41,402 bases of DNA, from assembly GCA_014859465.1 (NCBI GenBank), contig JACUUF010000023.1, positions 1-41,402 on the forward strand, read 5' to 3'. The notes beneath the pieces are model-generated. The model made no database searches, was not told where the DNA came from, and saw only the letters and a list, made by a program, of their open reading frames with translations. The stretch's first letter is position 1, and every line of letters starts with the position of its first letter. The stretch is from Methyloprofundus sp. (GTDB lineage: Bacteria; Pseudomonadota; Gammaproteobacteria; Methylococcales; Methylomonadaceae). This document shows, one piece after another, positions 22,939-40,517 of the stretch. A program made the translations under genes and the position numbers.

Positions 22939-22971
22939 ATTAATTACCTACTCTAAAATTTGATTAAATTG

Positions 22972-24579
22972 ATGAATAAACAATCTTCCTTACAAACTAA
23001 AGTTCTTTTCAGTATTGCGCTGGTATTTCTAGGTATTATTTTGTTTAGCACTTGGTATACAGCGCAAAATCAAAAGCAAATGATTCTGGACTTGGCAACT
23101 GAAAAATCAAAAGATATAGCGAGAACTTATTTTGATGGTTTAAATACGATGATGCTAACCGCAACAATGCATCAAAGTTCAGTGTTAAAAGAGAAAACTT
23201 TAGCGCATGATGGTGTTTTGGATATTCGCTCTCTTCGAGGTGAGGGAGTAACGCAATTTTTTGGTGCAGGAAGTGATGAGCAGAAAATTATTGATCAATT
23301 AGATCAACGAGCTATCTCAGGTGAAGAAATTATCGTGCATGCAAACACGAGTAAGGGGCGAGAGGTTACCGTTATCGAGCCAATTAAAGCCAGTGCAGAT
23401 TTTAGAGGAACAAATTGTTTGAGTTGTCATCCGGTATCCGAAGGGGAGGTCTTGGGAGCAATACGAGTTACTTATTCATTGGCGAGCTTAGACGCAAAAA
23501 TTGATAATGATTTAATGGTTACCTTAGGCATTAATACGGTGTTGTTTTTATTGGGTATGGGACTTATCTTTACTTTAATGAAAAAAATTGTTGTTCAGCC
23601 ATTAACTGCCATTCGTGACACAATGACAAAAGTTGAGAAAAACAGTGACTTAAGTTTACGCCTGGAAGTGCGCGGTAATGATGAAATAGCACAACTTAGT
23701 AGCACATTTAATAATATGCTGGAGAAATTTTCAGCTAGCTTGACTCATGTTGCTCATGCTAATGCGCAACTAAGCGTAGCAACGACTAAAATTTCAGAAG
23801 TAGCTAAACAAACTACCAGCGCAGCAGTACAGCAAAATAAAGAAACAGCGGCAGTCAGCTCGGCAATTCAAGCGTTGGAGCAGTCTGTCCAAGATGTCTA
23901 TCTTGGTGCAAAGACAGCAGCAGAAGCATCAGTGATAGCGGACCAAGCCGCTTCAAATGGGGCGGCAACGACAAAAAATGCAATTGATGGTATTTTTGAG
24001 TTAGTCACTGAAATTGAGCGCGCCGCTGAGGTAATTAAGCGTTTAGATGACAAGAGTAATGGTGTAAGTTCTGTTTTAGATGTCATTAAAGGGATTGCAG
24101 AACAAACTAATTTACTGGCATTAAACGCAGCGATTGAAGCTGCGCGTGCTGGCGAGCAAGGTCGAGGCTTTGCTGTGGTAGCCGATGAAGTGCGTACGCT
24201 TGCTACTCGCTCTCATCAAGCAACAGAAGAAATTGAACGTATCGTAGAGCAACTACAACATGAAGCAAAAGATGCTGTGTCGGTGATGCAAAGTGCCAAA
24301 GACAGCGCAGAACATCGACGTGAGCAAGTTAAAAGTGCCGATGAAGGATTGGTTTTAATTGCTGATCGAGTAACGCATATACGTGAACTGAATAAAAATA
24401 TGCAGCAATCAGCCGACAATCAAAGCGGTGTGGCGCAACGCGTTAGCCAAAATATCCAGACCATTAGTCAGCTTGCAGATAGAACCACTCAGGATGCAGA
24501 ACAAACCAATATTGCTAGTAGTGATTTGGTGCGTTTAGCGAAAGAATTAACTGATTTAGTTAACCAGTTTAAACTATAA
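22972..24579 (+). CDS. Methyl-accepting chemotaxis protein with CxxCH haem motif
   Basis: About 535 aa inner-membrane receptor. A TM helix near 8-28, a periplasmic domain of about 150 residues, a second TM near 180-200, a HAMP domain, then a long signalling helix hairpin with the hairpin-tip motif [38 protein letters not shown]. The periplasmic domain contains NCLSCH (CxxCH at about 149-153), a c-type haem attachment site, in a Tll0287/DUF3365-like context ([25 protein letters not shown]). It may sense redox state, oxygen or NO through haem; this is inference. No CheR-binding pentapeptide is seen at the C-terminus. ATG at 22972 is preferred to the TTG at 22960. Confidence 0.92.
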
Positions 24580-37473: not shown

Positions 37474-38604
37474 ATGGCTGAAGATTCAGGACAAGATAAA
37501 AGCGAAGAACCTACCGGCAAGCGCATTACTGATGCGCGTAAAAAAGGCCAAATTCCTCGCTCTAAAGAATTAGATACCTTTGTTTCCTTAATGACGGGTG
37601 TCATTATGCTGATGTTTTTAGGCAATGGCATAGTCGAAGGCTTGATGGTATTAATGAAACAGCAATTCCAAATAAGTCGAGAGCTTATTTTTGATCCCAA
37701 CAGTACGGTGTTGCTTTTTGATCAGGTATTATTGGATGGCATATTACTCATTTTCCCTTTTGGCATAGTCATGATGGTTATGGCTTTAATGCGACCGATG
37801 ATGATGGGCGGCTGGAATGTCAGTATGGAGGCGATGCAGCCTAAGTGGTCTAAATTTAATCCTATCAAGGGCTTTAAGCGCATGTTCGGTATGCAAGGAG
37901 TGATCGAATTACTTAAAGCGCTATTGAAAACCAGTTTGATTTTATTTGTCGCTAAAATTTTATACGATATTTATTTACCTGAATTTATGGGTTTAAGCAA
38001 TGAATCGGTTAACAGTGCTATTTATCATAGTGCGGATATTTTGATGTATTGTTTGTTGATTTTAAGTGCCACTTTAATTTTATTAGTTGTGATAGATGTT
38101 CCCTATCAGCTATGGAAATATAAAAAAGACATGATGATGACCAAGCAAGAGGTCAAGGATGAACATAAAGACTCCGATGGAAATCCTCAGGTAAAAGGGC
38201 GTATTCGGCAATTACAAATGGCTATGGCACAAGGTCGGATGATGAATGATGTACCTAATGCTGATGTTATCGTTACTAATCCCACACATTTTGCTGTGGC
38301 ATTAAAATATGATCCTAATAGCTCGGGAGCGCCTGTTGTGCTGGCAAAAGGAACAGATTTAATCGCTGCGCAAATACGTAATATCGCCACGGGCGCCGAT
38401 GTGCCCTTAGTCGCTGTACCACCTCTGGCGCGGGCTTTGTATTACTCGACAGAAATAGGCGAAGAGATTCCGGCAGGTTTATTTTTGGTGGTTGCCCAGG
38501 TTTTAGCGTATATTTTTCAATTAAAAGCCGCTAAAACAGGTTTTGGAGAAAAGCCAAGTATGCCAACTGATTTAAAAGTGCCCGAGGAATTTAGGCAGAG
38601 TTAA
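37474..38604 (+). CDS. flhB: Flagellar export switch protein FlhB
   Basis: 376 aa. N-terminal cytoplasmic EEPTGKRITDARKKGQIPRSKEL, four TM helices (about 36-52, 88-108, 145-165, 187-210) and a cytoplasmic autocleaved domain with the NPTH motif at exactly 269-272. FlhB switches export specificity from hook to filament with FliK. Full length and intact. It starts immediately after fliR. It ends the fli unit; the usual next gene, flhA, is not here and three envelope-type genes follow instead. Confidence 0.98.
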   Translation: MAEDSGQDKSEEPTGKRITDARKKGQIPRSKELDTFVSLMTGVIMLMFLGNGIVEGLMVLMKQQFQISRELIFDPNSTVLLFDQVLLDGILLIFPFGIVMMVMALMRPMMMGGWNVSMEAMQPKWSKFNPIKGFKRMFGMQGVIELLKALLKTSLILFVAKILYDIYLPEFMGLSNESVNSAIYHSADILMYCLLILSATLILLVVIDVPYQLWKYKKDMMMTKQEVKDEHKDSDGNPQVKGRIRQLQMAMAQGRMMNDVPNADVIVTNPTHFAVALKYDPNSSGAPVVLAKGTDLIAAQIRNIATGADVPLVAVPPLARALYYSTEIGEEIPAGLFLVVAQVLAYIFQLKAAKTGFGEKPSMPTDLKVPEEFRQS

Positions 38605-38675
38605 AGGTGCTGCAATTAAGTTAAGGGCTATTTCAATAAGCAACCTAGCAAAACCATTGTAAAATATTGAGTTCA

Positions 38676-39239
38676 ATGAAATTATTAAAAGTTATCGTTA
38701 TTATCTTGGTCGCTAATTTATTGGCTTGTACGCAGCCAAAAGTAGTTAACAAAGCTTGCTTGTTTGCTTCTCAGAAAAAAGCGCCAAACTGGATTTGTGA
38801 TGAGCCTTATTCTGATTTAGCTATTCAGGCAGTGGGTAAGTTTGAACTGTCATTCGGGGGGCGTAACTATATGCTAGATATGGCTGAAATTGCTGCAAGA
38901 AAGCAGTTAATCGAGAGATTTAAGCTTAAAGTTGCGCGCAAAATTAGCCTGTATGCCGAGAAATCTGAGTTAAGCAGTAAAGTCATTGATGCGTTAATTG
39001 TTAGCGCGAATAAACATATCGATAATGAAAGTTTAGCTGATGCTAAAGTTTATCAAATTGAGACAGGCCCAGAAAATGAAGTTTATGTTTTGCTCGGATT
39101 GGATCATGCTAAAACGAAAGTTTTAATAGAGGAGGTGCTTGTTACTAGTATGCAGAATGAAAAAAATCTATGGCAGGTATTTAAAACACAAAACGTAGAG
39201 CCACAATTAGCCGCTGCTATAGCGGCGATTAAAGATTAA
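38676..39239 (+). CDS. LPP20-type lipoprotein
   Basis: About 187 aa with an LLAC lipobox (signal peptide MKLLKVIVIILVANLLAC). The mature part begins with a Cys-bearing segment (KKAPNWICDEPYSDLAIQAVGKF) and an amphipathic helix with AARKQLIERFKLKV, as in LPP20 family lipoproteins (from memory). Members of this family are known in the outer membrane and in some bacteria near flagellar genes. The ATG at 38676 is preferred to a TTG at 38667. It lies 71 nt after flhB; function not established. Confidence 0.7.
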   Translation: MKLLKVIVIILVANLLACTQPKVVNKACLFASQKKAPNWICDEPYSDLAIQAVGKFELSFGGRNYMLDMAEIAARKQLIERFKLKVARKISLYAEKSELSSKVIDALIVSANKHIDNESLADAKVYQIETGPENEVYVLLGLDHAKTKVLIEEVLVTSMQNEKNLWQVFKTQNVEPQLAAAIAAIKD

Positions 39240-39260: not shown

Positions 39261-39809
39261 ATGAATATTCCAAATTCAAACTCTCAGCAGCCTGATTTAG
39301 ATTGGAGTCAAGTTCGAGAGACGGTTAAATTACTAACACTATCGGCTACGCAAGTGCAATCTAGTATACGCGAAGGTGAGCAGTCTGTGACGACACTAAC
39401 AGAGTCGTTTACTAGCATGGTTGATAGCTTATCGGAAATAAATAAGGCTCTTGAAGCGATAGAAGATAGCCCTGCAAAAGATAAAATTTTACAGCACTAT
39501 AGGCTGACTAATGAAAAGGTACAATCATCTATCATTGCCTTTCAATTTTATGATCGCATGCAGCAGTGCTTGCAGCATGTCACTGACAATTTGAGTAATT
39601 TATCGAAAATTATTGATAGCCCACAATTGCTTTATAACCCGATAGAATGGAGTAAGTTACAAGATAAGATCCGTAAAGGCTATACGATGGAATCTGAAAA
39701 AATCATGTTTGATGCGATTTTACAGGGAAAAACGCTAGAACAGGCTATGCAATTAGCCGCTGAGCAGGCTAATAGTCATCAAGATGACGATGATATTGAG
39801 CTATTTTAA
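39261..39809 (+). CDS. CheZ-like helical protein (putative CheY-P phosphatase)
   Basis: 182 aa, cytoplasmic, almost all alpha-helical, no TM. A long helix region is followed by IIAFQFYDRMQQCLQHVTDNL (about 91-111), where Asp98 and Gln102 are four residues apart as are the catalytic Asp143 and Gln147 of E. coli CheZ (AQDFQDLTGQ). The C-terminus is an acidic tail ending in a hydrophobic pair (DDDDIELF), much like the CheY-binding tail of CheZ (DLLDSLGF). Overall identity is low and no che gene is adjacent, so it is a candidate and not a firm call. Similar motifs also occur in other chemotaxis-related helical proteins. It lies 21 nt after the LPP20-type lipoprotein, likely in one unit. Confidence 0.5.
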   Translation: MNIPNSNSQQPDLDWSQVRETVKLLTLSATQVQSSIREGEQSVTTLTESFTSMVDSLSEINKALEAIEDSPAKDKILQHYRLTNEKVQSSIIAFQFYDRMQQCLQHVTDNLSNLSKIIDSPQLLYNPIEWSKLQDKIRKGYTMESEKIMFDAILQGKTLEQAMQLAAEQANSHQDDDDIELF

Positions 39810-39962: not shown

Positions 39963-40517
39963 ATGATAAAAAAAACCGGAATATTACTTTGTAGCACAAG
40001 CTTATTAGTGGGTTGCAGTGGTTTTACTAGCAAGCAAAAGCCTGCCCCTGTTTATGGTCAGGTTGACTCATCTGGCAGGCCTTTAAGCAGGGATAATAAT
40101 GCGGTTATAAGTGCGCCAGTTACTACCAAGCCAATAACGGTACAAGACTCTACTATTCTAAATCAGCAGGATGTCGAAGTTAAGCCTCAAGCAAAATCAT
40201 CTAATGTCGTCGTTGCTCTGCTTGCTGGTGCTGATAACTTGTATCAGCAGGGTAATATAGATGAATCTGTTACTACTATTGAGCGCGCCTTACGTATAGA
40301 ACCAAGAAATGCACTATTATTATATAAGTTAGCTGTTTTAAAATTGGCGCAAGAGGAGCTTGAACTGGCAATTAATTTGGCCAAAAAATCTGCTTTATTA
40401 GCTGAAGGTAATGGTGGATTAAAAAAGAAAAACTGGTTATTGATTGCAGATATCTATGCTCAGCAAGGTGATCTTGCAAATGCCAATGCAGCAAGACGCA
40501 AAGCTGAGCAGTTTTGA
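39963..40517 (+). CDS. TPR-containing lipoprotein
   Basis: 184 aa. Lipoprotein signal peptide with lipobox LLVGC (residues about 14-18). A disordered linker (about 20-75) leads to two or three TPR-like helical pairs (LLAGADNLYQQGNIDESVTTIERALRIEPRNALLLYKLAVLKLAQEELELAINLAKKSALLAE and following NWLLIADIYAQQGDLANANAARRKAEQF). TPR units mediate protein-protein contacts, so it may be an envelope scaffold. It precedes the fructosamine kinase gene by 19 nt. Confidence 0.78.
   Translation: MIKKTGILLCSTSLLVGCSGFTSKQKPAPVYGQVDSSGRPLSRDNNAVISAPVTTKPITVQDSTILNQQDVEVKPQAKSSNVVVALLAGADNLYQQGNIDESVTTIERALRIEPRNALLLYKLAVLKLAQEELELAINLAKKSALLAEGNGGLKKKNWLLIADIYAQQGDLANANAARRKAEQF

Follow-up and report, generated by a model that had tools for sequence, protein, structure and literature searches.

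Helicobacter HP0170 is known as a 'remote CheZ', and the CheC/CheX/FliY group of CheY phosphatases has an ExxN motif and an alpha/beta fold. In the excerpt of PMC3035606 that bears on mechanism, CheZ and CheC/CheX/FliY share a chemistry in which an inserted amide residue orients a water molecule and an acidic residue pairs with the lysine of the receiver. CheZ is described with an AXXF(Y)Q motif beside DXXXQ in an excerpt of PMC7750401, and R. sphaeroides CheA3 carries a CheY6-phosphatase domain, as described in an excerpt of PMC2829493. On gammaproteobacterial chemosensory evolution, an excerpt of PMC7184735 states that F7 clusters of stages 1 and 2 have cheY and that only F6 systems include cheZ. 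The present study analyzes a small gene, here called CZL, in the genome of a methane-eating bacterium; we found no description of its family in the open-licence literature, which is weak evidence of absence. HP0170 and the CheA3 domain are examples of CheY phosphatases outside typical CheZ. As in CheC/CheX/FliY, the chemistry proposed for CZL would insert an amide together with an acidic residue into the site of the receiver; unlike that group, CZL had no Pfam match to it, neither to CheC (PF04509) nor to CheX (PF13690), at E up to 10. We consider it likely that CZL is a stand-alone CheZ-type phosphatase of a CheY-like regulator, whose most probable identity is the CheY of a second chemosensory system and not the partner of the ordinary CheZ.

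The CZL gene, its site and its tail

The window, i.e. the whole stretch of DNA analysed (41,402 nucleotides), is contig C252 of an assembly of 4.77 Mb in 418 contigs (completeness 99.4, contamination 7). Those of its close relatives that have names are Methylococcaceae methanotrophs, Methyloprofundus and a methanotrophic endosymbiont of Bathymodiolus among them. CZL is a 182-aa ORF on the + strand, with its ATG at 39261 and a stop that ends at 39809.

37474..38604, + strand: flhB, last in the flagellar run fliL-fliM-fliN-...-flhB (PF01312 match at 37492-38514)
38667..39239, + strand: putative lipoprotein gene upstream of CZL (lipobox-like LLACT by eye; no Pfam family)
39261..39809, + strand: CZL, small CheZ-like protein (182 aa), predicted helical hairpin with additional short helices and an acidic, disordered tail
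39537..39569, + strand: active-site-like motif A93-F-Q-F96-Y97-D98-R-M-Q-Q102-C103, from sequence, on the second long helix (model residues 71-119)
39783..39806, + strand: acidic-hydrophobic C-terminal DDDDIELF, proposed CheY-binding peptide (tail conservation; predicted disordered)
39963..40517, + strand: putative TPR lipoprotein downstream of CZL (Pfam TPR families)

CZL lies near flhB on the same strand with a single ORF (38667-39239) between them, and 21 bases separate the stop of that ORF from the CZL ATG; the two are perhaps co-transcribed. Flagellar genes of the window were recognized by Pfam (fliL, fliM, fliN), by profile search (flhB) or by eye (fliP, fliQ, fliR), and a chemoreceptor with HAMP and MCPsignal is positioned upstream of them at 22960-24576. 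In a 67-locus homologue set, 51 loci had a homologue of the TPR lipoprotein and 6 had one of the upstream lipoprotein. A plasmid search with CZL returned no match.

Asp98 and Gln102 sit in AFQFYDRMQQC, and the protein ends in DDDDIELF. DxxxQ by itself was rejected as evidence, since there are three copies in CZL and at least one in 79.5% of shuffles; the extended pattern AxxF[YQH]DxxxQ was present in 0.035% of shuffles. The pair gains meaning because it is conserved in homologues: D98 and Q102 were both kept in all 116 homologues covering the site (104/104 and 12/12), members that were selected by whole-profile score and not by motif. The first-pass annotation had pointed to a CheZ-like DxxxQ context at Asp98 and Gln102, which is thus real, and the poor conservation of these residues that might have spoken against it was not found. 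The 104 are the distinct short homologues that extend to the site at a profile E of at most 1e-6, gathered from the loci of the 67-locus set, of 61 relatives and of a draw of 276 Gammaproteobacteria, a 105th being a fragment that ends before it; among them position 93 was A in 97 and position 96 was F in 103. In the 12 further members, which are mostly more distant, D, Q and F96 were present in 12/12 and A93 in only 6/12. An acidic tail with a hydrophobic end had also been claimed for CZL and proved equally genuine and nearly invariant, with [ED][LF]F in 111/114 complete homologues overall; the tails of the 102 complete short homologues read ELF (95), EFF (4), DLF (2) and GSG (1), and 10/12 of the further members had the [ED][LF]F form. 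The profile came from alignment A1, 45 rows taken from 67 rows chosen by motif pattern, and because the rows were picked in this way its invariant columns (F94, F96, D98, E180 and F182) are so partly by construction. Mean column identity in this closer set was 59%.

The ELF-type tail was missing in two diverged members, L169 and L170. L169 (G208) is in a che operon, where its ORF overlaps cheR and ends AGDD, and L170 (G220:C252) is very diverged, with the tail PVLF, a branch length of about 8 and doubtful membership. In a third case, L118 (G086), also in a che operon, there were approximately 13 extra residues after VIDLF.

Comparison with CheZ and with chemoreceptor-like proteins

A search for a classical cheZ elsewhere in the genome, which had been suggested as a check, found an ordinary one: it adjoins cheY (by eye and BLAST) and a fliA-like gene (by eye), and its product matches PF04344 with 239 bits and 1kmi at 4e-32. 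The site of this CheZ reads AQGFQDITGQ, and the A-x-x-F-Y-D-x-x-x-Q of CZL has the same layout as the CheZ motif AXXF(Y)Q with DXXXQ in the excerpt of PMC7750401. CZL shares with CheZ (PF04344; E. coli CheZ, 1KMI) the motif AxxF-[QY]-DxxxQ, located on one long helix of what is predicted to be a hairpin, an acidic-hydrophobic C-terminal peptide, a similar distance from Asp to C-terminus and a genetic link to chemotaxis. Median Asp-to-C-terminus distances were 84 residues in the short CZL family (80-98, n=101), 78 in CheZ (72-89, n=27) and 75.5 in chemoreceptor-like relatives (72-94, n=14). Unlike CheZ, however, CZL has no significant direct sequence homology to that family and is shorter, it has helices within residues 127-175 where the CheZ model of the same genome has a low-confidence linker, its tail is IELF as opposed to VDDLLSSLGF, and in che operons it adjoins STAS and cheR, not cheY.

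Direct searches were uniformly negative for CheZ. PF04344 was matched neither by CZL (E up to 10) nor by any of five further short members (E up to 0.1), NCBIfam and PDB searches with CZL gave no CheZ match, and a PDB sequence search by profile returned coiled coils and other unrelated chains with a best E of 0.0036. BLASTP of CZL against CheZ gave E 1.4. The comparison of profiles that the first-pass annotation had recommended yielded no significant match: A1 against alignment A2 of 27 CheZ proteins (hhalign) gave E 0.42, not significant, although the one stretch that aligned was in register at the site, and wider CZL and CheZ profiles gave P 0.04-0.06 out of site register. Neither a divergent CheZ paralogue, rejected for want of a profile or pairwise match to CheZ, nor a divergent cheZ that had merely been relocated is borne out; CZL is not a moved divergent cheZ, because a normal cheZ lies beside cheY and no CheZ profile matches CZL. 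On sequence grounds CZL is a CheZ-like analogue family outside PF04344 and not CheZ itself.

The AF2 monomer of CZL is all-helical (pLDDT 81.9) with a disordered tail, and its helices span residues 16-38, 40-65, 71-119 (with D98 and Q102), 121-124, 127-140, 144-154 and 159-175. The model of the CheZ from the same genome has long helices at 65-125 and 131-198, followed by a linker modelled at low confidence and by a terminal helix, and in both models the site is on the second helix of the hairpin. Foldseek with the CZL model gave no match below E 0.38 and no CheZ among the 50 best, a result that does not decide the CheZ fold, a dimer of long hairpins packed into a four-helix bundle, because helical hairpins are too common; as a control, Foldseek with the CheZ model matched 1kmi at 1.2e-6. 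VIA with the CZL model returned generic unrelated hairpins (top Z 9.6), also with no CheZ among the 50 best.

The CZL profile also matched chemoreceptor-like proteins of approximately 360-430 aa (e.g. L092, L094, L096, L207 and L220). These short chemoreceptor-like proteins resemble CZL in being homologous over most of its length, with the same site and type of tail, but differ in that they carry the MCP signalling domain PF00015, which Pfam does not find in CZL; the domain was present in the three scanned (L092, L094 and L096) and was their sole Pfam annotation above cut-off. Their C-terminal sites are of FQDRxxQ type and they end in -TFF, -AFF, -VFF, -NFF, -EFF or -ELF. Alignment of CZL with their C-terminal part by hhalign had a probability of 98.7% and P 4e-16 (columns 15-180 against 6-154), compared with P 0.017-0.25 for reversed decoys. 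The alignment of the group took in 14/20 candidates; of the six left out, three lacked the site, and the other three, which fell outside the motif pattern, read QFED, keep the x3-Q and terminate in IELF or VELF. The chemoreceptor-like tails in turn aligned with CheZ around the site, in register, at P 8e-4 and probability 25%, and L207 was matched by the CheZ profile (E 5.6e-9 in a 20-sequence search), a match that is not independent, L207 having been chosen after an earlier weak CheZ-profile match. The link from CZL to CheZ through these tails thus appears indirect and weak. It is possible that the chemoreceptor-like proteins with the CheZ-like FQDxxxQ site and -FF/-LF tail are receptor-phosphatase fusions.

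Distribution and genomic neighbourhoods

A draw of 276 Gammaproteobacteria contained 48 genomes that matched the CZL profile: the short gene was present in 36, and the remaining 12 had the chemoreceptor-like form only; the 36 were sorted by hand from the 48, and one of them, G220, was weak (22.5 bits, tail PVLF). Among relatives the short gene was present in 23/61, with four more having chemoreceptor-like matches only, and several genomes of the same genus were without it. A draw across the phylum (n=397) gave 25 matches, in which the short form, judged by ORF length and tail, occurred in the genome of the window, in five others of the class and in one outside the class (G436). FlhB was matched in 34/36 carriers versus 122/240 others (Fisher p 1.3e-7), and a CheA-type dimerisation domain in 36/36 carriers versus 147/240 other genomes, membership being read from a list. 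CheZ was matched in 27/36 carriers. Among FlhB-positive genomes, 25 had CZL and CheZ, 9 CZL only, 89 CheZ only and 33 neither (p 1.0), and because the two are present independently CZL does not simply take the place of CheZ.

Nine of the 36 carriers had no CheZ match (G067, G120, G174, G187, G205, G208, G237, G265 and G300). All nine have FlhB, and in seven, the exceptions being G120 and G237, CZL precedes cheR within a che operon. By profile, CheX and CheC were both absent from eight of the nine and both present in G265. For those eight, these profile searches gave no candidate CheY phosphatase other than CZL, with the proviso that assemblies may be incomplete.

Loci from the 276-genome draw were those of the 30 best matches, and six weaker members were checked afterwards. 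In 12 of the 35 gammaproteobacterial genomes other than that of the window, CZL immediately precedes cheR in a che operon (loci L163-L169, L173, L176 and L184-L186), and in 11/12 its own upstream neighbour is a STAS gene. The contig of L198 stops just past cheA-cheW-MCP-ParA-STAS-CZL, in L179 CZL is right after cheA, in L177 it is next to cheY, and in 20 of the 35 genomes no che gene was adjacent to it. Pfam confirmed CheY, CheA, CheW, MCP, STAS, CheR, CheD and CheB in the neighbourhoods checked, which covered some genes of L163, L164, L165, L173, L176, L177 and L179, with others assigned by BLAST to those. In L173 a single run, cheY-cheA-cheW-MCP-ParA-STAS-CZL-cheR-cheD-cheB, is followed by fliL to flhB. 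Within the 67-locus set (63 usable), cheA, cheB, cheD or cheR was found within 3 kb of CZL in seven loci, for example in Methylobacter sp. KS41, with the order CheA-CheW-CheD-CheB-CZL-CheW-MCP-CheR-fliM. A 72-row tree, which took in 63/67 loci of that set, requires eight changes of che linkage, at least three of them forced by supported branches, but with long branches and unsettled bootstrap it does not tell the ancestral state of the che-operon position.

In the 67-locus set, flhB was beside CZL only in L002 and L003, the closest relatives, and the flhB neighbourhood was rejected as a clue to function. The location near flhB to which the first-pass annotation drew attention is therefore true of the window but carries little meaning, since elsewhere CZL is linked to cheR-cheD-cheB or has no che gene beside it.

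The genome of the window has parts of a further che system on other contigs. The end of contig C25 (L183) carries cheY-cheA-cheW-MCP, and contig C97 (L202) carries CheW-ParA-STAS-cheR-cheD-cheB, in which STAS is directly followed by cheR with no CZL between; gene order in other genomes suggests that the two parts are one second che system. A CZL profile search of this genome gave one match, behind flhB, and the simplest reading is that this CZL belongs functionally to the second che system even though it is located elsewhere. Gene order, together with an Aer2-like receptor of globin-PAS-HAMP-MCP architecture, suggests that these second che systems are F7-like.

Proposed function and alternative explanations

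The CheZ-like catalytic pair, the tail and the che-operon location in several other bacteria together indicate that CZL, an uncharacterised small protein of methane-eating bacteria, is probably an unrecognised second type of swimming-signal off-switch. A CheZ-type mechanism fits the acidic-hydrophobic peptide at the terminus, the similar spacing and an invariant Asp-Gln pair separated by about one helical turn, and the initial reading of CZL as a CheY phosphatase may well be right. If CZL works as CheZ does, its disordered C-terminal peptide, DDDDIELF, would tether CheY and the helix with Asp98 and Gln102 would enter the active site of the receiver; Asp98 would then pair with the active-site lysine, and the amide of Gln102 would position a water molecule to attack the phospho-aspartate, which would end the signal. 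CheY binding, catalysis and the choice of CheY by CZL are all steps that we infer. For the wider proposition that CZL represents an unrecognised CheY-phosphatase family, present in 36/276 sampled Gammaproteobacteria, occurring both stand-alone and fused to chemoreceptor-like proteins and serving second (F7-like) systems of a kind reported to have cheY but no cheZ, we see an even chance.

An alternative explanation could be that CZL works by the same mechanism on another substrate, as a second phosphatase for the flagellar CheY that is partnered by CheZ, placed with the export genes and made with the motor. The CZL of the window is co-directional with and close behind fliL-flhB, FlhB was matched in nearly all carriers (34/36), and CZL may serve the motor CheY in carriers without CheZ because 8/9 of these are without CheX and CheC and 9/9 have FlhB. 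However, among the loci examined adjacency to flhB was limited to the window, L002 and L003, besides the che-fli run of L173, CheZ is already present in 27/36 carriers, and two carriers with no FlhB match (G086 and G215) keep CZL in a che operon, and we regard this explanation as possible but unlikely. A more doubtful suggestion is that CZL is a non-catalytic adaptor or CheY sink derived from a chemoreceptor C-terminus, binding CheY-P or the receptor array by its tail and helices; the homology to chemoreceptor-like tails, the position between STAS and cheR and the helical hairpin model are all consistent with such a role, but it is not obvious why a pure binder should keep Asp and Gln four residues apart in 116/116 homologues when mean column identity, even within the closer set, is as low as 59%. 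That CZL is a flagellar export or assembly factor with an unrelated DxxxQ, as its position behind flhB and very weak NCBIfam matches to FliH (E 0.035 for the CZL of the window and E 0.012 for L173) could be taken to suggest, is highly improbable given the che-operon linkage elsewhere, the invariant site, the two carriers without an FlhB match and flhB linkage mainly in near relatives.

A CheZ-type phosphatase acting on the CheY of a second system would have several implications. First is that annotation by the PF04344 profile, these data suggest, can miss functional analogues of CheZ, and therefore the activity may still be present in genomes labelled 'cheZ-less'. Secondly, if the reading is true, carriers that have none of CheZ, CheC and CheX could depend on CZL as the pathway's sole off-switch, and the fused form could build termination of the signal into a receptor-like molecule. 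How the CheY of an F7 cluster gets switched off is a natural question, and CZL, lying between STAS and cheR in similarly ordered clusters and fused to receptor-like proteins elsewhere, would be a direct candidate for that off-switch.
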